Origin: Tichowtungia aerotolerans
GTDB lineage: Bacteria; Verrucomicrobiota; Kiritimatiellia; Kiritimatiellales; Tichowtungiaceae
DNA: 64,000 nucleotides
Assembly: GCF_009905215.1 (NCBI RefSeq)
Contig: NZ_CP047593.1
Span: forward strand, 124,001-188,000
Direction of reading: 5' to 3'
Shown here: in pieces, positions 1,461 through 24,518 of the stretch
How the letters are laid out: every line of letters starts with the position of its first letter
Position numbering within the stretch: position 1 is the stretch's first letter
Position numbers and translations under genes: made by a program
Notes under the pieces: generated by a model
Seen by the model: only the letters and a program-made list of their open reading frames with translations
What the model was told of the DNA's origin: nothing
The model's database searches: none

Positions 1461-3518
1461 TTATGCTTCATCTTTTTTACGACAGCCAAACCGGCCGGGT
1501 CGATTGGAGGTTTTATAGGGATGGTCCGTTTTGTTCAGCAGAATTTTCCAGGGAATCGTCAGCACAAGAACCGTGCCCTGTCCGGGCGCGGTTTCGAGGT
1601 CCATTTTTCCTCCCATTTCCTGCGCGCGCTTTCTCATGCTGTCAAGCCCCCATCCATCGACAACGGAAGACACATCGAATCCGCACCCGTTGTCACGCAT
1701 CTGCAGTCTAAAACCGGCGGGCGCAACCTGCACAGAAACATCAACCTTCGTGGCCTGCGCATGTCGCGCACAGTTGTGCAACGCCTCCTTGAAATACATG
1801 AGCAAATGACGTTTCAACGTTAAAGGTATCTCGACATCCGGACAGTCATCCGGCATCTCGAAGGTGAGTTCCATACCGTCCAGAACCCGTTCCGTACGCT
1901 CCCGCAGCTTAACAAGCAAATCAGGCAGGCGCACACCACTGCGGTCAATCAACCAGACCACTTCGCGCAGCGAAGCACAGGCATCTCGAGCCATCAGGGC
2001 CAATTCGCCCAGCTCCTCTTTCATTTCCCCGGAAGCCGCAGTTCTCTCCAACGCAGAGGCCATTAGGGCCATACCGCCGAGATTGCTGCCGACCTCGTCA
2101 TGCAGGTCTCGGGTAATACGCTGCTTCAGCCGGAGTGCACCGACTCTACGCAGGATATGCTGATATATCAACGCCGCGATAACCAGGCTTGCAATCAGAG
2201 CTCCAATGACAATCCATGCTGTTTTTAAAATTCGGCGACGATGTTCGACCGACTCAACCATAAGTCTCGCAATATCATTCAAACGCCGCTCCAGCATATT
2301 GCGTCGGATCAGTCCGTTCACCCACTGGTTCATAGGCAACACCAGCAAACCGTTCGCCGTCCGATCAACCAGCGCATCCACCTGTCCCTGCCCATCCCAG
2401 CTGGCTACCCGGCATTGCAACAGTTCAACGCCCTGCAAAGCAACCTCCCCCAATGCAAATGTATACATCCCCTCATGCACCGGGAAATCGGAGAACGTCA
2501 GCTGCACCCAACGGACAAACCTGGAATTACCGGAAATACGAACCACGTTATTGCCCGGATTCGGCAGCGCCGATTCCTCGACGACACGCTCTATCTCCTG
2601 CGGATCGTTCGGCCGATCCCGAAACATCTGAAGCCTGACAGATCCCGGAAAGCCGTATCCCGGCACAATAATCCCTTCCGGCGGACGAGCCGGATAGAGA
2701 GAGATCATACTTACATGCACTTTTCGCCCCAAATCCAGCAGAAGCACCTGCTCGGCCGGTTGCTTCCTGTAGCGCATAATGTAATCCGATAACGGTTCTC
2801 CCCCGACGGCAGCCCCTACAGGCAGGCCACAACTGGTTTTCTGGTCGATCAAATAATCAGCACTCCAGAACGGAGGCGACTCGAAACTGGCGGAGGACCG
2901 TATCGCCAGAGTTTTCATTACAAAAAAATCAGTGCGTATCAACGCCTCGTCCAGCGCAAAAAACTCCCGGCCACCTTCGACAGTTCCGCGATAAACCTCC
3001 AAGAGGATCGTATCGAGAGAACCGCCGGTCCCGGCAAACCGAACAGGATAACGCCCGGGGTCAGGATAGTCACGCTCACGCCAGTCGGCAATCACCTCGC
3101 GCGAGCCATCCTGAGCAACTGCGGTAATCCGGAATCGACGGGGAAAGCCATATCCCGGCATATCATCAAACCGTCGGTCGGCCGCAGGAATAAGGAAAAA
3201 CTCATTAAAACTGTGCTCTAAAGTGGTTTTCAACTCGACGGTCCATCGCGGTTCCTCAGGTAATTCATCCAGTACCGGGAGGTATCCGCTGTGATAGCCA
3301 TATGCATCAAGTTGCAAAGAATCATCAATCTTCGGCAGGTCCGCCAGCTCAGCGCGCAGACGGAACTCCTCTACCTCCAGCCGCTGAATATATTTTTTGA
3401 TAGAAAACAAAGGAACAGATCCAACCGGATCCCCCTGAGCAAAAAGCTCCGCAGACATCACCCACAAAGACGTGTGAGCCAATACCGCAACTCGGAAAAT
3501 GGAAGCAAACTTGAGCAT
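1461..3518 (-). CDS. Sensor histidine kinase (HisKA_3) with a large duplicated periplasmic sensor
   Basis: A 685-residue membrane sensor kinase. Residues 1-28 look like a signal peptide. About 400 extracytoplasmic residues follow, with two lobes that both carry PGYGFP (121-126 and 286-291), suggesting a duplicated beta-sandwich resembling discoidin/F5-8C ligand-binding domains. One transmembrane helix lies at about 430-455. The cytoplasmic part has a HisKA_3 dimerisation region with phosphoacceptor H473 (RDLHDEVGSNLGG) and an HATPase domain (EALHNCARHAQAT, DNGCGFD, GWGLDSMRKRAQEMGG). It pairs with the NarL-type regulator directly downstream. The expected role is sensing an external sugar or polymer and phosphorylating that regulator. 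The start at 3518 has no clear ribosome-binding site. The ligand is unknown. Confidence 0.88.
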   Translation of the reverse strand: MLKFASIFRVAVLAHTSLWVMSAELFAQGDPVGSVPLFSIKKYIQRLEVEEFRLRAELADLPKIDDSLQLDAYGYHSGYLPVLDELPEEPRWTVELKTTLEHSFNEFFLIPAADRRFDDMPGYGFPRRFRITAVAQDGSREVIADWRERDYPDPGRYPVRFAGTGGSLDTILLEVYRGTVEGGREFFALDEALIRTDFFVMKTLAIRSSASFESPPFWSADYLIDQKTSCGLPVGAAVGGEPLSDYIMRYRKQPAEQVLLLDLGRKVHVSMISLYPARPPEGIIVPGYGFPGSVRLQMFRDRPNDPQEIERVVEESALPNPGNNVVRISGNSRFVRWVQLTFSDFPVHEGMYTFALGEVALQGVELLQCRVASWDGQGQVDALVDRTANGLLVLPMNQWVNGLIRRNMLERRLNDIARLMVESVEHRRRILKTAWIVIGALIASLVIAALIYQHILRRVGALRLKQRITRDLHDEVGSNLGGMALMASALERTAASGEMKEELGELALMARDACASLREVVWLIDRSGVRLPDLLVKLRERTERVLDGMELTFEMPDDCPDVEIPLTLKRHLLMYFKEALHNCARHAQATKVDVSVQVAPAGFRLQMRDNGCGFDVSSVVDGWGLDSMRKRAQEMGGKMDLETAPGQGTVLVLTIPWKILLNKTDHPYKTSNRPGRFGCRKKDEA

Positions 3519-4120: not shown

Positions 4121-6553
4121 TTATTCTGCATCATGTTCGAGGATCATTGACTCTATATCCACCGTTCCCTGCCCGCTGATTATTACACGGAAATCCGCCA
4201 TGGCATTCTGGCTGTTCTTGAAATATGGACGATCGAGTTTAAAGACAATTTCCTGAGCCTCTCCGGGAGACTGCCTTGTTTTTTTCGGATGCGCTTTATA
4301 GGGGTTGGGAAAATCGCCTGCAGGCCACATAGAATTATATTGAAGTCCCACAGTCACCGGGGCATCACAGCTCAATGCAATCCGGACCTGCAGGTCATCA
4401 GCCAGTTCATTTTCCTTGGAAAAAGCATCATCCACTGTGACGTAGAAATAACGAGGACTCTTCGCGGAAGGAGCCAGCCTCCAAACGGATGCATCACCGT
4501 CCTTCACTACAGCAAACGCCCCGTCACCGGCACGCACCGGCTCCAGCCCGGACGGCCCTTCTCCTGCACGGGCCTCCAGCCGTTTTTTATGCATCCAGGG
4601 ACTGGTCAGCGGAAGTTTGTCTCCTTCCTGCTTCAGAGACATAAAGGTATGGGCATCCAGAAACTCGATATTTGCTGCGGGGTGTTGTTTGCGCAGTTCT
4701 GTCACGACATCGGCCACCATAGACGGACGGAACAGAATAAGGCGATAAGCGTAAAACTCAGGATAGATCAGTCCGGAGCCGGCCCGCTCAAACAACCGGG
4801 CCATTTCAGACGTGAACATGGCCTTGTCCCGATGATGGTAAGCCTGCGCAAACTTAACCGGAACTCCGGCAACCTCCTTCAGAGTCGCGGTTCGGTTCAG
4901 TCCCATCCCGGCCGGTGTCAGGGCGGCAATCGGCGCGAGGATCTCTTCAGTGAACTCCTGGTCGCTGATATAGAATGCCATCAGATCCATATTCAACCGA
5001 TCGAGATACGGCTTCGCCGCCTGACAATAGGCCTCATACCCGTCCTCTTTAATACGGCCGGTACGGTTACTGCCCACCAAATAATATGGGTCGACGTAAC
5101 CGGCTCCGTCATCGCCGATGCGGAAGAAATCCTGCTCGGTCCGGTTTTCCAGCAGATAGCGGAACACGTGCGGAACGCGATCCGAGAGGAGCGGATTAAT
5201 CGCCCAGTTCAACGGGACGGTTCCCCGGCCGGGACGATCATAAATCGTGTGGGCAATCTGGTTCAGCCATGCCGACCCGTCATGATCGAGCATAAACAGG
5301 CAGACATAGATTGTATCTTTTTTCAGCTCCGGCTTTTCCACTGCGGGATTTGTGAATTCCGACGGCTTCGGCAGCGGCAGATGACGGTAAAACGAAGCAT
5401 TGGACAGCCCGAATGCGGCATCGGCATCGTTCCACAGGTTATATGATGTCGCCAGCCGGATAAACGCCTGCTCCGCATCAATCGGCGGATGCGCGTTGCC
5501 AACGGCATCGGTGTATTTCACCCACCACGGAGCAAACCCGCCCATCACACCGAATGCTCCGTCACGTTGACGGTAACTTTCTTCCAGCAGATCATTCCAC
5601 AACCTCAGGTCTGTGCCGGGAACCTGTCTCAGATCATCATTGGGTGCTGCATCATCCAGCGGATAGAGGTCCACAAAAAGGCCGCGCTGCGAAATCCAGT
5701 AATCGCCGTTGTAAAGTCCGTTGTGCTGAAGGATATTGCGGTTGCCCAGATGCTTGTTTCCCCCATAACTGACAACCGGCGGGTTCCAGGTAAACGCATC
5801 CAGATTGTACCAGAGATGATACGGACTGGCCTTGCCGGATTTCAGGTACAGATCCAGCATCGTGCGGTAAATCAGTTCTTTACCGGTGATCCCCTGTTTG
5901 GCCGCTTTCGAGGCATACCCTGTAAAATTCTGAACAACCGGAAGCGAAATCCCTGACGCCGCAATCCTCTGTTGGAGAAACCCGTCGTCAAGATCTGCAC
6001 TCAACGGCAGAAGGTCCTCGCACCCGGCTGCCGTCAGCGCCAGATTCACAGAGGATGGAGTTTCCATATCCCACAGCGCCAGCCCATTGACCTCGTCGGC
6101 AAACACAGAAAGCAGATCTTTAACCGATTCGATCTCAACAACGGGCCGTTGTCCCAGCAGCCCCGACTGCTGAAGCCAAGCCAGCCAGCGGCGGTCCATC
6201 GACTCAAAATCTGCCTGTTTATCACGTCCCTTAATATGAAAACTATCCAGTTCCACCCCGATCAGGTTCACCGCGGCATCCAGAAACAGCCGCGACTCAT
6301 CGCGGTTCACGATGCCCTGCAGGGCCGTAATAAAATAGGTAGCGTTCACTTGTTTCTCAAGTGAGTCAAATCCCTCCTGTTCATAGATTTTCCAGAGATC
6401 CAGCACGTAAACCGAAGCATTCGGCTCCGAAACAACGGTCTGCTGGGCGCACGCCGAAACAGCCCCGACCAGACAGCCGGCTGAAATCACCGACGCAAAA
6501 ATCCGCCTCGTCCACTTTTTAAACCCGTTGGGAACAGAACATATTGTCATCAT
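4121..6553 (-). CDS. Exported GxGYxYP-domain protein, putative glycoside hydrolase, predicted lipoprotein
   Basis: About 810 residues. The leader ends in VSAC at about residues 32-35, an acceptable lipobox, so the protein is probably lipid-anchored. The N-terminal part (VYVLDLWKIYEQEGFDS, then ALQGIVNRDESRLFLD) is the recognisable opening of GxGYxYP-domain proteins. The name-giving motif appears in altered form as GAGYVDP, with Asp in place of the second Tyr. The C-terminal 120 residues look like a beta-sandwich accessory domain. Members of this family are often found in carbohydrate-utilisation loci, but I know of no firmly established activity. It is the third gene of the minus-strand run after the two GH38 genes, about 95 bp downstream. 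The start is ATG 6553, with GAAGGG six bases upstream; an in-frame TTG just before it is less likely. Confidence 0.6.
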   Translation of the reverse strand: MMTICSVPNGFKKWTRRIFASVISAGCLVGAVSACAQQTVVSEPNASVYVLDLWKIYEQEGFDSLEKQVNATYFITALQGIVNRDESRLFLDAAVNLIGVELDSFHIKGRDKQADFESMDRRWLAWLQQSGLLGQRPVVEIESVKDLLSVFADEVNGLALWDMETPSSVNLALTAAGCEDLLPLSADLDDGFLQQRIAASGISLPVVQNFTGYASKAAKQGITGKELIYRTMLDLYLKSGKASPYHLWYNLDAFTWNPPVVSYGGNKHLGNRNILQHNGLYNGDYWISQRGLFVDLYPLDDAAPNDDLRQVPGTDLRLWNDLLEESYRQRDGAFGVMGGFAPWWVKYTDAVGNAHPPIDAEQAFIRLATSYNLWNDADAAFGLSNASFYRHLPLPKPSEFTNPAVEKPELKKDTIYVCLFMLDHDGSAWLNQIAHTIYDRPGRGTVPLNWAINPLLSDRVPHVFRYLLENRTEQDFFRIGDDGAGYVDPYYLVGSNRTGRIKEDGYEAYCQAAKPYLDRLNMDLMAFYISDQEFTEEILAPIAALTPAGMGLNRTATLKEVAGVPVKFAQAYHHRDKAMFTSEMARLFERAGSGLIYPEFYAYRLILFRPSMVADVVTELRKQHPAANIEFLDAHTFMSLKQEGDKLPLTSPWMHKKRLEARAGEGPSGLEPVRAGDGAFAVVKDGDASVWRLAPSAKSPRYFYVTVDDAFSKENELADDLQVRIALSCDAPVTVGLQYNSMWPAGDFPNPYKAHPKKTRQSPGEAQEIVFKLDRPYFKNSQNAMADFRVIISGQGTVDIESMILEHDAE

Positions 6554-6649
6554 CAATCGCCCTTCTTCATTTGATCTTCATCATATCTGCTGTCCGCCTG
6601 GGATCCGCAATACGAATAACCTTTTTCACTTAACTCGTTCAAAAAATAC

Positions 6650-9517
6650 TTATCTGAAACACAGGGTCAGAATTTCCAGGGGCCGGAAAGTCAACTCGGT
6701 TTTATTTCCAAGGATCGGAAGTTCTTCGCCGGACGGAGACTCATCCAGATTAATTTTTTCCAATGTCTGGAAATCTGCCTGCAGAGTCAGCTTCGTCTTC
6801 ACCGGTTCCGGCGCACTGTTCCAGAGACGAAGAACCGTCGCGCCCTCTTCCGTGCGGTACAGCGCAGAAATCTGGACGTTCCGATTTTCCTCAATCTCCA
6901 GCAGCGACTGTTTCGGCGGCAGAATGCCCGGCTTCGGAACGCCCTGCAGCACACGCACCGGCGTACGGAAGTCATCGGCCTCCCAATGGATCCCCGCGTC
7001 GTTCCAGTTTCCGTCGTGCAGTGTCACGGCGTATTCAACCTCGTATGTTCCCTGCAGCTGGTGACCGTTGCTGCGATCCAGCTCTTCCGGCGTCATCTTG
7101 CCGCGGTTGGCTTTCATCGAAACACGCGTGGTGCGCAGCATCGTGACTGCCAAGGTACGATCCGCATCGTCGAACACTTCGTATTCCCCGACGCCCTTGC
7201 TCATAAAGCTGAATCCGGCTTTGTCGTCACTGACGGTGACAAAGCGCTGCATCGGCTGGAACGGATGATGCGGTTCCATGTTGTCCTTCGTGTCGTTCCA
7301 CAAAACACACCGCTTAATGACATCAAACGGACTGTCCGCGTAGGCGAAGTCGGTCTGAATGCCTGTCGGGAACAGCAGGCGCAAACGATGATCTTTGGCG
7401 CTGTTGTCAATCGTGGTTTTAAACTCAAGACGGCGGCTGCCTTTGGCCAGCGTCACGCGGGTGGAGATGGCAACCGGCACGGTATTACGCGAGCGGTCAG
7501 CGCCCTGCGCGCATTCCGGCACGGGAAGCGTCAGCTCAATCTGCCAGGTGGCACGCAGCGCATTGTTTTCAACCAGCGTCAGGTGTGCCGGTTCGCAAAG
7601 GCTGCTGACCACTGTATCGCGCAGAACGCCGCTGTGCTTGTGCGCATTGCCGGTGCTCGCATCGTCCGCCCAGACGTGCAGTCCCGCAGCCGTGCGACCG
7701 GTCTGCTTGTCGGTCAAATCCAGCGTGCCGTTCGGATTGATCTGCGCACGGACAAACTCGTTTTCGAGTATTCCGCTCTGAAACGCGATAAAGGACCGCT
7801 CCCCTTTCGGCTGCGGATTCGGTTCATACTCACGCAGGCGCGGTCGCACAGCCAGTGTGCGCCAGCCCATCGGCGGCAGCTCGATATCGATGAGCAACCG
7901 GTTGCGAAGGATGTCAAAAACCGCCGCGTTGGCGTCGAGCTTGCGTTCGACTTCCATATCGATGTCTTCGCGCTGAAAGACCGTATACGGAACCTTGTTT
8001 CCCTCTTCATCAATCAGATCGAAATATTGGAACGTCAGCATTTTGTCGGGCTCAAACCCTTCAACGATCGGGCCCACGCCGGTACAGGTTTCGACCTTGA
8101 AGTTTCCAAAGTTCGGGCGCGGCGTGTCGACAACGACCGATTCAATCCGCTTGCGGGTAACCGGCAGCGTATTGAAGAAGGTGAGCGTCAGATCGCCGTC
8201 CTCGAAGGTTCCGGCGGTGTCGATTTTCGTCCAGAGTTCTTCGGAGGCTTTGCGAGAACATTCGAGGGCAATCGACGTCGTGGCGTGAAAGCGGAACGGA
8301 TTGTCTTCGTGCGCCTGTGAAATCGCCGCGCCGCAGATGCTGTCGTGAGCATGGTTTTTCAGCAGGTACAGCCACGCCCGCTCGAGCAGAGCACTCTCAT
8401 ACGTACCGCCGCAGAGCGCACTCATCGCAGCCAGCGGTTCCGCTACATTGATCAGCTCGCGCTGTGCGAGATCGTTCTCTAATTTCAGATCCATCCGGGA
8501 AGAATGCGTCGCACCCAGCAGGCCGTTGAATCCGGCCTCAACGAGCGTATAACGCATTTCCCCGCGAAGAACGGGAACGGAATCTGCATCCAGCCCGTCC
8601 AGACAGGCATCGACGTATTCATCGATACCCGCCTGCTGAATCTGATACTCATCCTGTGCGGCATTGCAGGCGGCGATCAGCGCCGGCAGCTTTTCGTAAG
8701 GCACGGCGTTGTCTTCCATGTCGAGCGCAAGCAGCTGGCTGTTCACCATCTGCGGCTCAGCCTGCGCGCCGAGCATGCGGATTGCTTCGCGAATGGCCTC
8801 CGGATCGGCATTGAAATCCATGCTTTCGTTTTTGAGCTGGAAGGCCGTTTCGTACAGCCCGGCATCGGCCATGTGCACCGGCCAGTCGGAGGCATTCCAT
8901 TCTGTGCTCAGGTCGCGCGGATGTTTGCCGAGTACGAGTTTATAGTGCGGAAAGAAAAACCAGTTGGTGCGGGTGACTTCGTCAAAACAGCGCAGATGGA
9001 AGATCTGGGTTCCGTCCGGACTTTCGAGGCGGCAGATCGGCGGGACCTGTTCTTTATTGGTGCCGCGGTAGGAGAGCGCGGATTTCATGCCGAAGCCGGC
9101 ATAGATCTGCGCGAGCTGCGAAATCTGGCCGTAGGACGTCGCGGTATAACCGGCGTTGACGGCTCCGCCGAACCCGTCGGCCATGCGTTTGCCGATGAGC
9201 AGGTTGCGGATCAGCGACTCCGGCGCCACCGATGACATTTCCGGCAGCGTGTACCACATGACCGTCTGAATCCGCCCGGCGTTCATCAGTGCGCGCAGGC
9301 GTTCTTCGTTCTGCGGCCGGGCGCTGAGATAGTCCTCGATCACCACGGTGCCGCCGTCGAGCAGGAAGCACTTGTAGTCCGGATTGCGCTCCATAATATC
9401 GAGCAGTTCGTCGACCAGCTCCGCCAGCCGCAGCAGGGACTGCTCGGCCGTGAAGCGCCATTCCCGGTCCCAATGCGTTCCGGAGATTACATGAAAGGTT
9501 TTCTGTGCGTCAGACAT
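6650..9517 (-). CDS. GH38 alpha-mannosidase-family protein lacking the catalytic nucleophile
   Basis: A 955-residue cytoplasmic-looking protein (no signal peptide) with the overall plan of GH38 alpha-mannosidases. The zinc-site motif HWDREW is at residues 15-20, and NHAHDSICG marks the second zinc-histidine region at about residue 390. The central mannosidase domain and the C-terminal beta-domains follow. The segment that normally holds the Asp nucleophile and zinc ligand reads GYTATSYGQISQL (123-135). Aligned with GYAPDQFGLISQL of the neighbouring paralogue, the Asp becomes Thr127. Either the protein is catalytically inactive, or it works differently or on another substrate. The gene starts 35 bp after the intact paralogue, with AGGGA six bases before ATG 9517. 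No frameshift or stop suggests decay, so selection appears to maintain it. Confidence 0.85.
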   Translation of the reverse strand: MSDAQKTFHVISGTHWDREWRFTAEQSLLRLAELVDELLDIMERNPDYKCFLLDGGTVVIEDYLSARPQNEERLRALMNAGRIQTVMWYTLPEMSSVAPESLIRNLLIGKRMADGFGGAVNAGYTATSYGQISQLAQIYAGFGMKSALSYRGTNKEQVPPICRLESPDGTQIFHLRCFDEVTRTNWFFFPHYKLVLGKHPRDLSTEWNASDWPVHMADAGLYETAFQLKNESMDFNADPEAIREAIRMLGAQAEPQMVNSQLLALDMEDNAVPYEKLPALIAACNAAQDEYQIQQAGIDEYVDACLDGLDADSVPVLRGEMRYTLVEAGFNGLLGATHSSRMDLKLENDLAQRELINVAEPLAAMSALCGGTYESALLERAWLYLLKNHAHDSICGAAISQAHEDNPFRFHATTSIALECSRKASEELWTKIDTAGTFEDGDLTLTFFNTLPVTRKRIESVVVDTPRPNFGNFKVETCTGVGPIVEGFEPDKMLTFQYFDLIDEEGNKVPYTVFQREDIDMEVERKLDANAAVFDILRNRLLIDIELPPMGWRTLAVRPRLREYEPNPQPKGERSFIAFQSGILENEFVRAQINPNGTLDLTDKQTGRTAAGLHVWADDASTGNAHKHSGVLRDTVVSSLCEPAHLTLVENNALRATWQIELTLPVPECAQGADRSRNTVPVAISTRVTLAKGSRRLEFKTTIDNSAKDHRLRLLFPTGIQTDFAYADSPFDVIKRCVLWNDTKDNMEPHHPFQPMQRFVTVSDDKAGFSFMSKGVGEYEVFDDADRTLAVTMLRTTRVSMKANRGKMTPEELDRSNGHQLQGTYEVEYAVTLHDGNWNDAGIHWEADDFRTPVRVLQGVPKPGILPPKQSLLEIEENRNVQISALYRTEEGATVLRLWNSAPEPVKTKLTLQADFQTLEKINLDESPSGEELPILGNKTELTFRPLEILTLCFR

Positions 9518-9552: not shown

Positions 9553-12273
9553 TCAGCCGAACTTCAGTTCCAGGCTGAGAATCTGCTTCGGGGTCAGCAC
9601 GGGCGGGATCTCTGCCGACTGCCAGGCCTCCTGCGGAGTTTCATCCAGCATCACCTCGCGCCAGCCGGTCACATTCCCCAGATCAACAGAGACCGGTTCG
9701 TCCGACGGATTGAACAGACGCAGAATCAGTCCCCGCCGATCTTCGGCCTGCTTAAAGGCGGAAAACACTCCGTCTCCCCGCAGTTCCACACTGGAGGATT
9801 GCAACGGCAGACAGACCTGCTCCGCCGGAAGATCCCTGAAGAACATTTCACTGAGATCCGCACTCTGCACGCAGGGACGGCCGTTCAGGAATTTATGATG
9901 ATCCGCGGAGTCAAAGCCATACAACAGCGACGAGACCCAGCACTGTTTTTCACGGAAGAGTTCCGCAGAAGAGGCCTGCCCCACCCGGATCCCGATATGG
10001 AACGGCGTAGAGCGCAAGCATTGATTTTCTGGAGCGGCCCATTCCGGAGCCTGCTCAACGCCGTTTCCGTCCTCTCCAAACAGATCGTTTGTGATACGGC
10101 CTGTCGCACGCACGCAGGTAAAGGCGAGCGAGTGGCGCTCATCTCTCAGGTATTCATAGTCGTACACTCCGTCTGTCAGCACACTGATCTGCGCTTCGCT
10201 GTCTTTGACTGAAACCCAGTCGGAGACGGGCTGACACTTATCGGTATTGAGCCACTCCTGCTCCGGATAGCGCGGGCGAACCACAACATCGAACGGCTGG
10301 GCACACAGGCTGGAGTCTGCATTGACCCCGCTGTGAACCAGCATCCGCAGGCGGTGGTCGGAGGACGCATTTTCAATCTCCGCATTCAGATCCAGCACGG
10401 GAGATCCCCGGCGAAGCGTCAGAAGCAGGCTCACCCGGTTTTCCACAGAGCCGGTGCGAATGCCGCGTTTCCGATCCAGCGATTCCGGAAGCATCAGTGA
10501 ATAGTCCAGGCGCAGGGACTGGCACAGATCATTTTCTTCTTCCAGAGTCACAACCGGCTCTGCGCCGGAAAGATCAAAGGCGTCTCCCGGAATGCAGCAG
10601 TAGGAATCTCCAAGATCCGTCGTATCTTCAAATGACAGCACCGACTCGATCACCTTCCCGCTTTGAAGATCTTCCAGGTCGACACGCCCTGTCGGCTGCA
10701 CGGACAACCGCAGGAATTCATTCTCGATCCGGCATCCGGTTCCAATTTCCGCCTGACATGCAGCCGGAGCGTTCGAGTCCGGCTCAAGCCGGTAGACCGC
10801 ATAGCCGGAAGCCGGAACTTCGGCCGCATAGAAACGGATGGTCAGCTCTTCGACCGCCAGCTGGCCGGGAAGGTTGAACGGAGACAGCGTCATGCGGTTA
10901 TGCTTTTTGGACTCAACCACATGGTACGGCACACTCTCGCCGTTCGGAGCGGTGAGCCGGAATCCGCTGACCTTTTCGTCCAGCGGGAGCCGAACCTGGG
11001 CCGTGACCACTTCGGAACGCGTGTGCGGAAGCGGGTTAACGACAGCCAGCAGATAATGGTCCGCAGCCATCCCGTCGCGGCTGATCCGGTCAAGAAGACC
11101 CTGAATTCCGCGCTGTTTCAGATCCTCTCCCCCGTCGATCACCCGCAGGAAACGGTTTTCATTATCCTGGTGAACCCGGTCCACGCTGCACCCACAGATG
11201 CTGTCGTGAGGATGGTTTTTGATCAGCTCTTTCCACAGGTAAAGCATCATGTCTGCAGGATAGGACTGAGCCCCGCCGGTCGATACGGCCAACGCGGCAT
11301 AAAGCGGCTCCAGTTCGAGTTCAAGAAGTGTCTGACATCGGCTGTTCAGCGCTTTCAGGTACCGACGAGAGCTGAGCGTTCCCTGAAGCAGGTCCAGGTC
11401 AATGCCGTACCTCAACTCTCCATGCACCGCGGGAACGGCCCGGTCACTGAGGTAGCCGGACACGCGATCGATATAGGCCTGAAGCGTGGACTGCGAAATC
11501 TCGGCGGCTCCCTCCATATCCTGCTGAAGCCGTGAAAGAATCGGCAGCAGGTTTCCCTGCGCTTCCAGATGGTCGACCCCGTTCATCAGCAACCGGAACG
11601 GTGTGGTACAGAACGGCTCCAGTTCTTTATCTACATGCTGCAGATACCGCAAAGCCCGCTCCGGATCTTCGGAAAACCGCTGGGCGTTGTTATACCATTT
11701 TGAGAGGTGAATCGAGAACACACCGGAGCCGTCCGGAGAAATCCACTCAAACTCTGCCGGGCGGGATTCGCGCACCGGCGCTCCGTCTTCGCCCTGCTGA
11801 TAAAAATTAAAGCCGCGCCCGAAGACGGCATTCTGGACCCCGAACCGCTTCAGGATCTGGGGAAGCTGACTGATCAGCCCGAACTGGTCCGGCGCATAGC
11901 CGACCATTTCGCAGCGGCCGAATTCGCTCGCGATCGCAGACCCGATCAGCAGATTGCGAACCGTGGACTCACCGCTGGTCAGATGAAAATCGTTCTGAAC
12001 ATACCACGGGCCGACCAACAGATTCCCGCTGGCAATCAGCTCCCGCAATCGTCCCCGCCGATGCGGACGAATCTCCAGATAATCTTCCAGACAGATGGTT
12101 TGTGCATCCAGATAGAAGACATAATTCGGATGCTTATCATAAATCTCCAGCAGGTGGTCGATCAGATCCACCAGCCGCAGCCGGAATTCCTCAAAACACT
12201 GATACCATTCACGGTCCCAGTGAGTGTGGGAGATCACAAAAAACTCTTTATTCTGTATATCAGACTGGTGCAT
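9553..12273 (-). CDS. GH38 alpha-mannosidase
   Basis: A 906-residue alpha-mannosidase of family GH38, related to bacterial mannosylglycerate-hydrolase-type enzymes. HTHWDREW at residues 16-23 supplies the zinc-binding His and Asp. GYAPDQFGLISQL contains the predicted nucleophile D129, and NHPHDSICG supplies the later zinc His. There is no signal peptide, so it should act in the cytoplasm on an imported mannoside. It is first in a minus-strand unit with the variant paralogue and the GxGYxYP lipoprotein, divergent from the sodium symporter gene 156 bp away. That layout suggests uptake and hydrolysis of the same sugar. ATG 12273 has AAGGA four bases upstream. Linkage specificity cannot be read from the sequence. 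Confidence 0.92.
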   Translation of the reverse strand: MHQSDIQNKEFFVISHTHWDREWYQCFEEFRLRLVDLIDHLLEIYDKHPNYVFYLDAQTICLEDYLEIRPHRRGRLRELIASGNLLVGPWYVQNDFHLTSGESTVRNLLIGSAIASEFGRCEMVGYAPDQFGLISQLPQILKRFGVQNAVFGRGFNFYQQGEDGAPVRESRPAEFEWISPDGSGVFSIHLSKWYNNAQRFSEDPERALRYLQHVDKELEPFCTTPFRLLMNGVDHLEAQGNLLPILSRLQQDMEGAAEISQSTLQAYIDRVSGYLSDRAVPAVHGELRYGIDLDLLQGTLSSRRYLKALNSRCQTLLELELEPLYAALAVSTGGAQSYPADMMLYLWKELIKNHPHDSICGCSVDRVHQDNENRFLRVIDGGEDLKQRGIQGLLDRISRDGMAADHYLLAVVNPLPHTRSEVVTAQVRLPLDEKVSGFRLTAPNGESVPYHVVESKKHNRMTLSPFNLPGQLAVEELTIRFYAAEVPASGYAVYRLEPDSNAPAACQAEIGTGCRIENEFLRLSVQPTGRVDLEDLQSGKVIESVLSFEDTTDLGDSYCCIPGDAFDLSGAEPVVTLEEENDLCQSLRLDYSLMLPESLDRKRGIRTGSVENRVSLLLTLRRGSPVLDLNAEIENASSDHRLRMLVHSGVNADSSLCAQPFDVVVRPRYPEQEWLNTDKCQPVSDWVSVKDSEAQISVLTDGVYDYEYLRDERHSLAFTCVRATGRITNDLFGEDGNGVEQAPEWAAPENQCLRSTPFHIGIRVGQASSAELFREKQCWVSSLLYGFDSADHHKFLNGRPCVQSADLSEMFFRDLPAEQVCLPLQSSSVELRGDGVFSAFKQAEDRRGLILRLFNPSDEPVSVDLGNVTGWREVMLDETPQEAWQSAEIPPVLTPKQILSLELKFG

Positions 12274-12330
12274 TTCATCCTTTCATCCGCGCAACCGTAA
12301 ATGTGTTATTTTTGGTACGGTGTTTATTTA

Positions 12331-12350
12331 GTATACAAATTTTGGTTTAC
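12331..12350. promoter_or_regulatory. Candidate operator between the divergent mannosidase and symporter genes
   Basis: The AT-rich divergent promoter region contains a 20-bp imperfect inverted repeat (GTATACAAAT followed by TTTGGTTTAC, seven of ten arm positions matching). It overlaps a second short palindrome centred on GTATAC at 12331-12336. Its size and symmetry suit a LacI- or GntR-type dimer, and the position would control both gene units. No -35/-10 pair stands out. Inference only. Confidence 0.3.
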
Positions 12351-12429
12351 TAACAATCAAAAACTTGCTTTATTCGCTCCTGAACAATTTTATTGTTGGC
12401 CACTATATTCCCAACTAAACGGAGACCTC

Positions 12430-14400
12430 ATGAACGCAATGAACTATTTCGGGCTATTGGATTACATCTTCATGGGAGGCTATCTCCTGATTCTTCTGGG
12501 AATGGGGTTCTACCTGAAGCGACTGGCGTCCCGCAGTCTGGAAAACTACATCTGCGGCGGGCGGCACATTCCGTGGTGGATGATGGGGGTGTCCGGAATG
12601 GCCAACTTTCTGGATCTGGCGGGAACGGCCGTCATCATCTCTTTTCTCTTTATGATCGGCCCGCGCGGACTGTTTGTTGAATTCCGCGGCGGCGCGGTGC
12701 TGATTCTCCCGTTCATGATGCTCTGGGCCGGAAAATGGCATCGGCGCTCCGGCTGCCTGACGCTGGCCGAGTGGAATATTTTCCGGTTTGGTGACAACTG
12801 GGGCGGACGCTTTGCACAGCAGATGATCGTGATTTCCGTCATTCTGTTTACAATCGGCATGCTGGCCTACCTGATTATCGGCGCCGGAATTTTCCTGTCG
12901 ATGTTTCTGCCCTTTTCTCCCATGGCCTGCTCCATTGGCCTGATCGGGCTCGCCACGTTCTATAATATGATTTCCGGATTCTACGGCGTGGTTTACACCG
13001 ACCTGTTTCAGTCCTCCATCATCATCGCCGCGGTCATTTACATATCGATTAAAGCATTCGGAATCACAGACAGCGCCGAACAGATCTCGGCCGTGGCACA
13101 GCAGGTAACCGGCACCGCCGACTGGATCAGCGGAATGCCCCGCTGGACCGTGGATATGCCCAAGGGCTATGAGGCCTACCGCCCGCTCATGGCCATCATG
13201 GGACTCTACCTCGTTCGCACCATCTTCTTCGGTGCCGGCTCCGGCGGCGACCAGCGCTACTTCGGAGCCCGCAACGACCGCGAGTGCGGCATGCTCTCAC
13301 TGTTCTGGACCGTTCTGATGACCCTCCGCTGGCCCATGATGATCGGCATCGCCGTGCTCGGCCTGTTTGCCGTGCACAACCTGCTGCCGAACCACGATGC
13401 CGTCGCACAGGCCTCCCAGCTGATTCAGGCCCACTATCCCGGCACGGAAGGTCAGGCCTGGGACGCACTGATCTCCGGCTTATCACACAATCCGGCAAGC
13501 TATCCCGCCGAGCTGATCGACCAGCTCAAAACCCTGCTCGGCACCGACCAATTCTCCGGGAAACTCCAGCTGCTCAGCAGCCAGGGAACCATCAATCCGG
13601 AAAAAATTCTTCCGGCCGTTCTGCTGATTTCCGTGGGAGAAGGTATGCGCGGCATTCTGGTGATTGCGCTGGTGGCGGCGGCCCTGTCCACCTTCGGCAG
13701 CACGGTCAACCTCACAACCGGCATGATCGTAAACGACCTCTACAAAAAATGGATCCGCCCGAAAGCCTCCACCCGCGAGCTGATCTTTGCCAGCTGGGCC
13801 AGCGTGGCCATTCTGGTCATCGCCGGCTTCTTTTTCTCCGTGACGCTGAAAAACATCAACGACATCTGGGGCTGGCTGATGATGGGGCTGCAGAGCGCCA
13901 TCCTCGTCCCCATGTTCCTGCGTTTCTACTGGTGGCGCTTTAATGGAGGCGGCTATGCATTCGGCTGCCTCGGCGGGCTGGTTGCAACCATCATACAGCG
14001 CGCAATTGCTCCGGAGCTCAATGAAGGCTGGCAGTTTGTCATCACACTGGCCGGCGGACTGGCCGGAGCGATTATAGGAACCTACACAACTCAGCCCACA
14101 GACCCCGAGGTTCTGAAAAACTTCTATCTGAAAACCCGGCCGTTCGGAATCTGGGGAAAACTCAAGCAGCAGCTTCCGGAAGAGGAGCGGATCAAAGTCA
14201 GCAAAGAACATTCCCGCGACCTGATTTCCGTCCCGTTCGCCCTTCTCTGGCAGATCACGATGTTCCTGCTGCCCATGCTCGCATTAATTAAAAACTGGAA
14301 AGGCAGTATCATCACATTTGTTCTGTGGCTGATCGGAGGAATCGGGCTCTGGTTCTTCTGGTACCGCCACCTGCCGAAAACCAATTTCTACGAAGACTAA
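12430..14400 (+). CDS. Sodium:solute symporter (SSS family)
   Basis: A 656-residue inner-membrane transporter with about 13-14 hydrophobic segments. The N-terminal region (LENYICGGRHIPWWMMGVSGMANFLDLAGTA) is typical of the sodium/solute symporter family of sugar and organic-solute importers, driven by the sodium gradient. ATG 12430 was chosen because GGAG lies five bases before it; the frame extends further upstream, but that part is AT-rich and non-membrane-like. The gene is divergent from the GH38 mannosidase unit and is followed within 20 bp by a sulfatase. It therefore probably imports a mono- or disaccharide released by the secreted enzymes of this locus. The substrate is not identifiable from sequence. 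Confidence 0.9.
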   Translation: MNAMNYFGLLDYIFMGGYLLILLGMGFYLKRLASRSLENYICGGRHIPWWMMGVSGMANFLDLAGTAVIISFLFMIGPRGLFVEFRGGAVLILPFMMLWAGKWHRRSGCLTLAEWNIFRFGDNWGGRFAQQMIVISVILFTIGMLAYLIIGAGIFLSMFLPFSPMACSIGLIGLATFYNMISGFYGVVYTDLFQSSIIIAAVIYISIKAFGITDSAEQISAVAQQVTGTADWISGMPRWTVDMPKGYEAYRPLMAIMGLYLVRTIFFGAGSGGDQRYFGARNDRECGMLSLFWTVLMTLRWPMMIGIAVLGLFAVHNLLPNHDAVAQASQLIQAHYPGTEGQAWDALISGLSHNPASYPAELIDQLKTLLGTDQFSGKLQLLSSQGTINPEKILPAVLLISVGEGMRGILVIALVAAALSTFGSTVNLTTGMIVNDLYKKWIRPKASTRELIFASWASVAILVIAGFFFSVTLKNINDIWGWLMMGLQSAILVPMFLRFYWWRFNGGGYAFGCLGGLVATIIQRAIAPELNEGWQFVITLAGGLAGAIIGTYTTQPTDPEVLKNFYLKTRPFGIWGKLKQQLPEEERIKVSKEHSRDLISVPFALLWQITMFLLPMLALIKNWKGSIITFVLWLIGGIGLWFFWYRHLPKTNFYED

Positions 14401-18935: not shown

Positions 18936-21479
18936 TTAAGGTGTCAGCGACGAAAGAAAAACGCCTCCTAAAAACAGGTTCGTATCAGTCGACTGGATTC
19001 GCAGATCCGCTCCGTTACAACGCCCACCGAAGAAGGCATCTTTAAGGGTAATGGTGGCCACCCGCCACGTCCGGCTATCGGCCAACATCACTTTCATCCC
19101 TGAAAATTTCCAGGCCCCCGCAGACTTCGGATTCACACGAACACTCGAATCCGAGGAGTCGTAAACCAGAGAGAAAGATCCCTCGCCCTGATCAAAATAA
19201 AGAACCTGAACCTTGACCTCTGGATTCTTCCCATTCCGTACCGCATGATCTTTAGACTTGTAGTATCCGTATCGGCTTTTAGATCCTGCTTTCTCTGAGA
19301 TATAAGAAACAGCCCGCCCCTCTTTTTCCTGCAGTGCAACAGGAGACTCTTTGGTGCCGGCATGCAGTTTCATCGGTGTTCCCAAAGCCTTTACATCACC
19401 CGAAAAAAGTTCTCCCGACTGCGCGCCGTCAAAGTTCGGCGGAGGGAAGTTGTCTGTACGGAACGGACAGACCGGCAGTCCGCTCTTTGAATACAGGTTG
19501 CAAAGAGGAAAGTTTCCCCATCCGTAGCGGACCGCGACAGGCGTTGGAACCTGCGGACTGGAGACAAACACCTGATTTCCGCGAATCACGGCATTCGCTT
19601 CCACAAATTTACGGTCTGCACCGCAGATTTTAAATCCGGCCACCTTGGAGGCCGGAACCCGGAATGCTTCCGGATCTTCACCTTTCGGCAGATTGCGGTT
19701 CCGGTTCATCACAACCTCCCGGGTCTCCAACCCGGAATCCGCTTTGGAAAAATTCAGAACAATCTGATTCCCGTCCACCGTCATGCCACTGTACATCGGA
19801 CTGGAAGCAACAACATCCAGTCCTTCCGCCTGCAAGGCGTGCAAGGCCAGCCGCTCGCCGACAACCTGCTTCCATTGAGGATGGATATCCAGATACTCAC
19901 CGGCATCGGTAATCACAGCCATTCCTGTATTGGGCAGCGCCAGCGTCCGGGTCTGAGCCTCACGAAGCCAGGCCCATGCCGCCCCGTTCTTGTTCCAGCC
20001 CAGCGTTTGATACGGTGCAAGCTGCACAAAATAGAACGGAAGGTCTTCATTATCAAAAGTCTCTCGCCACGCGGAAATCATCCCTGAAAAAAGAGACTCA
20101 TACGCGAGGACTTGCGGAGAGTTTGATTCCCCTTGATACCAGATCACTCCTTTAAACGTAAAATGGCGCAGCGGGTAAATCATCCCGTTATATAAAACCG
20201 ACGGGTTGTTCCGCCCCAGCTCTCCTCCTTTATAGATCGGCTCCTTTTCAGCATACCCCAGTGCCTCCAGCGTCTCCGCCGGAGTCCAGGCTTCGGCAAT
20301 GGTAGCGCCCCAGGCACTTTCAATGAGCCCGACCGGCACATTGAGTTCTTCATGCAGGATGGATCCGAAGTAATATGCGGACGGAGAAAACCCTTCCAGA
20401 TAATAAGAAGAAGATGACTGCCAGGTTCCCTTCAGAACCGGCTCCAAAACCAGTTGATCGAGAGGATTTACGCTGGGCACTTTCGCCGCGACCAGAATCC
20501 GGAGGTTCGGGTTGGTCTTTTCCGGAGGGGTCAGCAGGCTGTATGATCTGAAGGGATGGTCCATATTAGACTGTCCTCCGGCCAGCCAGACATCACCAAC
20601 CAGAACATTGCTAATCGACGTCTCTCCGGACCGTTCTGATGTAACGCTCAGTGTACGCGGTTTGAAAGAAGCGGGCATGGGGTCCAAATGAACCAGCCAC
20701 TTTCCCTCTCCATCAGCAACCGACGTCTTCGACTGGTCGGCAAAGGAAACGGCAACCTGATCCCCGGGACGAGCCGCTCCGTAGACGGCCACCCGGGCAT
20801 TGCGCTGAAGAACCATATTATCCGTGAATACATTGAACAGACGAACCGAATCCGGACGAACATCGGACGGAATCACTGATACATGATCGATACAGATCCG
20901 CTCGCGCTGCAGAAATGTACCTTTTCTGGGTCGGAAACCAATATACAGATTCGGATCCGACCCATCCGGCATCGCCCGGGTCGGAACAATCGTAAACGAG
21001 TAGGAGGTCCACTCGTCACTCAGCTCCAGGTTTGTGTCCATCAGCGATTCCAGAATCGCCGCGGACCCTTCATACGTTTTGACGGCAACCTGCAAGGCAT
21101 TGTCGTCGCCCGACACCCGTTTGGCATCAAAAGAAACCGTGTACGCGGTCCCGGGAGAGATCGCAGACGCACCGGCGCCGACATGATGCACATCGAATCC
21201 GGCATCCCGTTTCTCTGATGAAGAACAGTCAATTTCTAGGTAATTACTGCCATCTGAGGCCGAAGATGGGTCCGTCACCACACGATACGTCACCGCGCCT
21301 TCCGTCGCGGTATTGAATGCCCGCCACCCAGTCACTGAATATGCGGGCGATATCTGACTCGGCGTCAACATCTGTTCTGCTGTATCTTCAAACCCTCCAT
21401 TGACGACCAGGTTCGTGATGCCCGCCTGGCACCATGCCGCCAGGCTGAACACCATCATTACTGCTGTAAATTTATTCAC
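18936..21479 (-). CDS. Secreted sialate-O-acetylesterase-like (SASA) enzyme with N-terminal binding module
   Basis: An 847-residue exported protein. Residues 1-19 are a signal peptide. Residues about 22-205 are one copy of the locus-wide binding-like module. An esterase domain with an inserted beta-sandwich follows at about 210-690. GDVWLAGGQSNM gives nucleophile S304 and oxyanion residues; FKGVIWYQGESN and DAGEYLDIHP carry the other SASA-family signatures with the catalytic Asp/His region. The last 130 residues form a further beta-domain resembling accessory parts of the GH71/99-like neighbour (GGRCNGADLRIQ compared with GRQNGGADFRLV). Family members remove O-acetyl groups from sialic acid or other glycans; here sulfated polysaccharide is the likelier target. 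Translation starts at GTG 21479, with AGGAG five bases upstream. Confidence 0.85.
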   Translation of the reverse strand: MNKFTAVMMVFSLAAWCQAGITNLVVNGGFEDTAEQMLTPSQISPAYSVTGWRAFNTATEGAVTYRVVTDPSSASDGSNYLEIDCSSSEKRDAGFDVHHVGAGASAISPGTAYTVSFDAKRVSGDDNALQVAVKTYEGSAAILESLMDTNLELSDEWTSYSFTIVPTRAMPDGSDPNLYIGFRPRKGTFLQRERICIDHVSVIPSDVRPDSVRLFNVFTDNMVLQRNARVAVYGAARPGDQVAVSFADQSKTSVADGEGKWLVHLDPMPASFKPRTLSVTSERSGETSISNVLVGDVWLAGGQSNMDHPFRSYSLLTPPEKTNPNLRILVAAKVPSVNPLDQLVLEPVLKGTWQSSSSYYLEGFSPSAYYFGSILHEELNVPVGLIESAWGATIAEAWTPAETLEALGYAEKEPIYKGGELGRNNPSVLYNGMIYPLRHFTFKGVIWYQGESNSPQVLAYESLFSGMISAWRETFDNEDLPFYFVQLAPYQTLGWNKNGAAWAWLREAQTRTLALPNTGMAVITDAGEYLDIHPQWKQVVGERLALHALQAEGLDVVASSPMYSGMTVDGNQIVLNFSKADSGLETREVVMNRNRNLPKGEDPEAFRVPASKVAGFKICGADRKFVEANAVIRGNQVFVSSPQVPTPVAVRYGWGNFPLCNLYSKSGLPVCPFRTDNFPPPNFDGAQSGELFSGDVKALGTPMKLHAGTKESPVALQEKEGRAVSYISEKAGSKSRYGYYKSKDHAVRNGKNPEVKVQVLYFDQGEGSFSLVYDSSDSSVRVNPKSAGAWKFSGMKVMLADSRTWRVATITLKDAFFGGRCNGADLRIQSTDTNLFLGGVFLSSLTP
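20850..21416 (-). repeat. Module copy A (N-terminus of the SASA esterase)
   Basis: Coding repeat of about 185 residues with landmarks NGGFED, VTGWRAFNT, YTVSFDAKRVSG, EWTSYSF, LYIGFRPRKG and ICIDHV. It is the most divergent of the six copies, with a few inserted residues near the start. Confidence 0.75.
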
Positions 21480-24497: not shown

Positions 24498-24518
24498 ACA
24501 CGCCTCCTTTCTCAAACA

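Follow-up and report, generated by a model that had tools for sequence, protein, structure and literature searches.

GH38 is a textbook family of retaining glycoside hydrolases whose defining feature is an Asp nucleophile. For SpGH38 of S. pyogenes, PMC2815779 gives His13, Asp15, Asp125 and His351 as the zinc ligands, with Asp125 doubling as the nucleophile; the same account names Asp232 as the acid/base and has Arg149 and Tyr192 in contact with Asp125. Here we analyse a gene of Tichowtungia aerotolerans, found in a 64,000-nucleotide stretch of contig NZ_CP047593.1 (positions 124,001 to 188,000 of the forward strand; this whole stretch is referred to below as the window), whose product has the GH38 fold but carries Thr at the place of the nucleophile Asp. 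It belongs to a widespread clade of GH38-fold proteins which have no Asp at this place (Asp-less, in contrast to Asp-type), and which are linked to an unusual HAD phosphotransferase family.

The gene (positions 6650-9517, minus strand) is a 955-residue open reading frame without internal stop, and it lies 35 bases downstream of an Asp-type GH38 gene (positions 9553-12273, minus strand), whose product carries GYAPDQFG in the motif GYAPDQFGLISQL and shares 33% identity with it by pair alignment. All four GH38 domains (38N, mid, 38C and 38C2) were recognised by Pfam in both proteins. An AlphaFold2 model of the Thr-type protein, built with 62 sequences, had a mean pLDDT of 92.2 and a pTM of 0.93, and its closest PDB structure by VIA-align was SpGH38 itself (2wyh; Z 45.7, rmsd 2.4, 840 residues), the top rows being GH38 throughout. 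The initial annotation, made from the sequence alone, had described an intact GH38 paralogue with the nucleophile Asp replaced by Thr and with HWDREW and NHAHDS conserved, and this description was confirmed. In a phmmer search, residues 4-151 matched residues 6-153 of 3LVT without a gap, placing Thr127 (codon at 9137-9139, ACG on the minus strand), in the translated motif GYTATSYGQISQL (residues 123-135, positions 9113-9151, minus strand), opposite the Asp of GYFPDTFG and hence SpGH38 Asp125; within the motif, this ungapped alignment showed no other Asp at the nucleophile place. HWDREW (residues 15-20) and NHAHDS (388-393) are both intact. The motif is identical in two orthologues (70-71% identity) and in a second copy in the same genome (89%), against which the window gene gave a dN of 0.069 and a dS of 0.879 (dN/dS ~0.08). 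The low dN/dS points to purifying selection, and as the motif is also shared by independent genomes, chance, decay or sequencing error was ruled out as the source of the Thr.

The window equivalents of the SpGH38 residues are His15, Asp17, Thr127 and His391 at the zinc site, Asp269 as the acid/base, and Arg151. Thus, judged from the aligned residues, the zinc ligand that also acts as nucleophile is lost, and the remaining three of the four are kept together with the acid/base. We tallied these positions over 118 Asp-less rows (42 from the clade to which the window protein belongs, termed the Thr clade, and 76 others) and 35 Asp-type rows, after removing two duplicates, a repeat gene and any row of fewer than 400 residues; window positions of the codons, all on the minus strand, are given in brackets. 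HWDREW with the zinc ligands His15 and Asp17 (9458-9475) was kept in 115 of 115 aligned Asp-less rows, Asp269 (8711-8713), the counterpart of SpGH38 Asp232, in 118 of 118, and the pair His391-Asp392 (8342-8347), of which His391 is the zinc ligand from the fourth domain (SpGH38 His351), in 117 and 118 of the 118, respectively. Locus L012 carries Leu instead of His391, perhaps through a sequencing error. Arg151 is likewise retained across the Asp-less clade, which spans many phyla. Position 127 was Thr in 42/42 Thr-clade rows and, in the 76 others, Phe (56), Ser (10), Thr (3) or one of a remainder including Cys and Asn; replacements over the clade as a whole comprise Phe, Ser, Thr, Cys, Asn, Ala and Met.

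The Asp-less proteins have also gained residues of their own. Arg21 (9455-9457) is carried by 102 of the 116 Asp-less rows aligned here; its counterpart in HWDREW-type Asp enzymes is Tyr, present in 21 of 26 aligned Asp-type rows. Gln131 (9125-9127) is shared by 111/118 Asp-less rows and was not among the residues listed at this position for any of the 35 Asp-type rows. Arg183 (8969-8971) lies in the loop which holds Tyr192 in SpGH38, where NWYSN has become RTNWFF in the window protein; this position was Arg in 113 and Lys in 5 of the 118 Asp-less rows, and Leu, Phe or Met in ten Asp-type WY.N loops, the other Asp-type rows having no comparable loop. At the place of His215 (8873-8875), His, Arg or Lys was found in 116 of the 118. 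Basic residues gained along with the loss of a carboxylate would be expected if an anion had taken the place of the Asp. Ahead of Asp269, the window protein has about 40 residues more than the adjacent paralogue, by pair alignment. Glu268, next to Asp269, was constant in the Thr clade (40/40), whose rows in the tally were picked by an EDN motif that includes this residue, and Asp-less rows outside the Thr clade have His, Cys, Met or Val there.

The breadth of the clade was assessed by scanning 84,980 genomes, one per species, with 14 aligned Asp-less relatives as the query. The scan gave at least 594 stretches; relatives are encoded in 533 of these, from which the 80 best were taken forward. 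Readable GH38 rows in these 80 loci comprised 39 of the Thr clade, 47 other Asp-less and 3 Asp-type, a ratio which is biased towards Asp-less rows, because the query contains the GQ motif, and is thus uninformative on their share of all GH38 proteins. Going by record titles, the loci, most of them from metagenome-assembled genomes, span at least 15 phyla, including Kiritimatiellota, Planctomycetota, Bacillota, Sumerlaeota, Spirochaetota, Lentisphaerota, Bacteroidota and Calditrichota. Two trees were built with the motif columns excluded. In the first (125 rows, after removal of the two records that duplicate L008 and L009, and of rows shorter than 580 residues), 109 Asp-less rows formed one side of a single branch with an SH-aLRT support of 94; in the second, under a mixture model and with more Asp-type rows (33 of 81), the 48 Asp-less rows did likewise with a support of 90. 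Both were quick trees without bootstrap, with several long Asp-type branches and weak inner branches near the split. Whether the Thr variant forms a clade, a check proposed with the initial annotation, could be answered in the affirmative, as the Thr-type rows fell into a single group (support 100 in the first tree) nested within the larger Asp-less clade. The first branch within the latter is a small Ser-type group (GYxISSFGH; Sumerlaeota and Armatimonadota), which keeps the FGH of ordinary GH38 proteins. By both trees, then, the Asp-less GH38 proteins are monophyletic, and the nucleophile Asp was lost once; the branch is old and widespread. Four single Asp-less rows, L060:4339-7110 (G055), L110, L133 and L119, sit on long branches; the nucleophile is replaced by Cys, Ser, Met or Asn in these.

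Asp-less GH38 genes are linked, often as direct neighbours, to an unusual family of HAD phosphotransferases. With DLDGT constant in 21 of 21 members, this family has the HAD-IA fold and the DxD motif, and the closest solved sequence is that of a beta-phosphoglucomutase (beta-PGM; 3NAS, E 6e-6). A short form of about 330 residues, with an additional N-terminal part, adjoins the Thr-type gene in many Clostridia, and a long form (about 450-500 residues, with 27-31% identity to it) adjoins three Asp-less genes, including those of Ignavibacteriota and Calditrichota (long HAD genes at L116:4427-5797, L122:4605-5948 and L132:8824-10308). The long form has the signature DMDGTTTTTE plus GNSTTKHVEYL and is barely recognised by Pfam. 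In the scan loci, a HAD gene lay within 1.5 kb of 22 of the 39 Thr-clade rows, 13 of the 47 other Asp-less rows (the three long-HAD cases included) and none of the 3 Asp-type rows; when the count was restricted to rows flanked on either side by 1.1 kb of DNA or more, the figures were 19/26 and 11/33 for the two Asp-less sets.

Linkage was then counted over whole genomes in three ways, none of which corrects for shared ancestry. In one order of Clostridia (245 genomes), a strong match to the short HAD (at least 461 bits; 12 genomes) was found in all 11 genomes with an Asp-less GH38 and in 1 of the 234 others. These 11 have the top GH38 scores and carry readable Asp-less motifs (nine read among the 30 best loci, those of G165 and G204 separately), and G121, the one remaining HAD genome, lacks any GH38 match. 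A GH38 match of any kind was present in 99 genomes, and none of the 88 outside the Asp-less set had a strong HAD, although most of these 88 owe their Asp-type label to score alone, since motif reading covered the 30 best loci (18 Asp-type, 9 Asp-less and 3 without a readable motif). In 58 relatives of the window genome, the HAD was present in 13 of 14 with a readable Asp-less GH38 (12 with the short form, G055 with the long one, and neither in G027, which is 88% complete) and in 2 of the 44 others, namely G012, where a GH38 stub at a contig end lies beside the HAD, and G033. Lastly, of the 43 genomes whose loci lack an adjacent short HAD, 17 carry the short form elsewhere, and the long form was found in a further 11 (28 genomes were given to the long-form search).

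Inverting phosphorylases are described in PMC8950772 as having one catalytic residue, with phosphate as the nucleophile; a single residue is enough because the phosphate itself makes the attack. The Asp-less GH38 proteins may resemble this arrangement, as the nucleophile is absent and the acid kept; Glu268 is a candidate base in the Thr clade, and the clade-specific basic positions 21, 183 and 215 would be candidates for a phosphate pocket. The proteins begin about 10 residues ahead of the first strand and, by eye, have no obvious signal peptide. We therefore favour, with confidence and doubt about equally balanced, the reading that these proteins are cytoplasmic, zinc-dependent inverting glycoside phosphorylases with the HAD processing the sugar 1-phosphate. 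Inorganic phosphate, held by Arg21, Arg183 and His/Arg/Lys215, would replace the enzyme nucleophile and attack the anomeric carbon, and Asp269 would protonate the leaving group. An alpha-mannoside would thereby yield beta-mannose 1-phosphate with inversion, both the inversion and the sugar being suppositions, and the linked HAD would then act on this product, giving mannose 6-phosphate should it be a mutase. The kept acid, the lost nucleophile, the gained basic residues, the lack of an obvious signal peptide and the linked HAD together make up what, by analogy, would be the pattern expected for a change from hydrolase to phosphorylase. A more tentative and broader proposal, which may quite possibly hold, is that the Asp-less GH38 proteins represent an ancient and widespread new class of zinc-dependent inverting phosphorylases that emerged within GH38 when the Asp was lost, making beta-hexose 1-phosphates from alpha-linked glycans, together with a dedicated new HAD phosphomutase subfamily comprising the short and long forms.

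Several observations weigh against the phosphorylase reading. Arg21 is missing in 14 of the 116 aligned Asp-less rows, and residue 127 is variable across the clade. The sequence of the HAD does not decide between mutase and phosphatase: its best fold matches were phosphatases and beta-PGM, tied at Z 17-20; the NCBIfam beta-PGM model gave 25-27 bits in all four members scanned, against a cut-off of 189.4; and the models for beta-PGM, hexitol phosphatase and pyrophosphatase scored alike, at about 20-28 bits and all below cut-off. His20 and Arg49, which we take to be hallmarks of beta-PGM, are Trp and Val in the HAD alignment. As for linkage, neither form had a full-length match in 15 of the 43 genomes whose loci lack a neighbouring short HAD, and the intact HAD of the window genome lies 1.6 Mb from the window. 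In G121 the HAD adjoins a GH2 beta-mannosidase-like gene rather than a GH38, and in G033 (L196:4776-8566) the short HAD directly follows a GH78 rhamnosidase-like gene, with no GH38 nearby. The HAD may thus serve a sugar phosphate pathway more broadly, and the G033 case may hint that other glycosidase families feed the same enzyme.

The best surviving alternative, which we nevertheless regard as rather unlikely, is an active hydrolase with another mechanism, where zinc-bound water or another carboxylate, possibly Glu268 in the Thr clade, stands in for the Asp, with the HAD being an ordinary sugar phosphatase in the same pathway. The zinc site and the acid are retained, a coordination site would be freed by the loss of one ligand, Glu268 is constant in the Thr clade, the ROK kinase and ManA genes near some loci fit a release of free mannose, and the HAD was seen twice beside ordinary-looking hydrolases. 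However, Glu268 gives way to other residues outside the Thr clade and therefore cannot account for the whole Asp-less clade, and a hydrolase would leave unexplained both the three gained basic positions and the restriction of the HAD, among GH38 proteins, to those without the Asp. We consider it improbable that the proteins carry out a different zinc chemistry on a sugar, such as deacetylation or elimination, with the HAD later dephosphorylating the product. Three zinc ligands and the acid/base Asp remain for such chemistry and the GH38 barrel resembles NodB-type deacetylases, but the whole GH38 architecture is retained, along with the equivalents of Arg151 and Asp392, which hold the sugar in SpGH38; no deacetylase was found among the 50 PDB matches listed for the model of the Thr-type protein.

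Of the three options raised in the initial annotation, an enzyme with changed chemistry fits best, and a pseudoenzyme partner or a regulator is disfavoured. A partnership with the Asp-type paralogue was ruled out as a general rule, as a readable Asp-type GH38 occurs in only two loci of the 39 Thr-clade scan rows (adjacent in L093 and about 3.7 kb away in L128), besides the window itself and L039 outside the scan. Thus while the missing nucleophile and the nearby Asp-type GH38 in the window and in L039 would suit a non-catalytic sugar-binding or regulatory protein, this is the least likely reading, and a very improbable one, because the zinc ligands, Arg151 and, in 118/118 rows, Asp269 are kept, new residues are fixed beside the lost Asp, selection is purifying, most Thr-type loci lack an Asp-type neighbour, and the linkage to the HAD is tight.

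Returning to the phosphorylase reading, the surroundings of the Thr-type loci bear on its substrate. In the window, the next gene in the same direction (positions 4121-6556, minus strand) encodes a GxGYxYP_C protein, a putative glycoside hydrolase (Pfam PF14323, 78.9 bits), and a sodium:solute symporter gene is divergent (positions 12301-14400, plus strand; Pfam PF00474); the Thr-type gene faces this symporter and two sulfatases. In PMC4071793, GxGYxYP is proposed to be a family of glycoside hydrolases, with no specificity assigned. Its members recur at many Thr-type loci, and these loci may supply a substrate context for the family. Other Thr-type loci have LacI regulators, ABC sugar transporters and GxGYxYP proteins nearby, and mannose genes were found near some of them, namely ManA, a ROK kinase and GH92, at three loci each. 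These neighbours indicate glycan breakdown, with mannose the likeliest sugar, a link resting on few loci. Downstream of the window cluster and in the same direction are a histidine kinase (1461-3518) and a LuxR-type response regulator (804-1457), possibly the regulators of the cluster. Two large, secreted-looking proteins with CBM_4_9 domains are encoded at 21519-24515 and 18936-21479; one of the two has a weak GH99 match below cut-off and one a SASA esterase domain.

The window genome (G000) has six GH38 genes by PF01074, one with the Asp and five without: the window gene, its second copy and loci at about 1.005, 2.368 and 2.551 Mb. The second copy (C1:2653790-2656489) begins only at residue 52 and is beside transposase-like open reading frames. 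Its locus, L037 (C1:2648000-2662000), has a Thr-type GH38, a GxGYxYP gene, a symporter and a HAD gene truncated after about 110 residues, flanked by the transposase-like frames. L037 thus looks like a recently broken duplicate of the window system; of the two copies, it is this one and not that of the window which seems damaged.

No description of an Asp-less GH38 clade was found in the literature searched, which consisted of titles and abstract openings with subscription journals mostly outside its coverage; nor was a GH38-fold phosphorylase or an alpha-mannoside phosphorylase found there, and GH38 does not occur in the phosphorylase review PMC8950772. With a clade this broad lacking the Asp, many automatic annotations must be wrong on mechanism, and if the phosphorylase reading is true, thousands of database entries named alpha-mannosidase or mannosylglycerate hydrolase would be phosphorylases. 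The clade would show a retaining hydrolase turning into something else while its metal site persists. Phosphorolysis would provide an energy-saving route for alpha-mannosides, or a related sugar, in gut Clostridia and in marine Kiritimatiellota and Planctomycetota, and a new tool for the synthesis of alpha-mannosides from sugar 1-phosphates.

Compared with SpGH38 (2WYH) and the E. faecalis GH38 (3LVT, 5KBP), the window protein shares the four Pfam domains, the fold, the His/Asp/His zinc ligands, the acid/base Asp and the Arg151 equivalent, and differs in having Thr for the Asp that is both nucleophile and fourth zinc ligand, and in the altered Tyr192 loop with its new Arg. Architecture, fold, acid/base and, by sequence, three zinc ligands are thus those of a GH38 alpha-mannosidase, but the defining nucleophile was present in 0 of the 118 Asp-less rows, and for this reason we describe the protein as GH38-fold rather than as a GH38 alpha-mannosidase, without filing it as a phosphorylase. 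Its top NCBIfam match was the mannosylglycerate hydrolase MngB (NF007331), at 404.6 bits far under the cut-off of 1138, and the Asp-type neighbour scored as well on this model (423.8 bits). In their working, maltose and trehalose phosphorylases, which belong to GH65, offer a parallel together with beta-PGM, as inverting phosphorolysis of an alpha-glycoside is followed there by a HAD acting on the beta-sugar 1-phosphate; they differ in glycoside hydrolase family, and the HAD found here is not a recognised beta-PGM. According to PMC7608592, beta-PGM acts on the beta-glucose 1-phosphate arising from maltose and trehalose. The GH130 mannoside phosphorylases differ in having a five-bladed propeller (PMC8950772), beta-mannosides as substrates and alpha-mannose 1-phosphate as product, and the likeness is in working only: a phosphate nucleophile, one acid, a basic pocket, and a split between phosphorylases and hydrolases which, as reported in PMC4599007, follows three basic residues that hold the phosphate, members with Glu instead being hydrolases.

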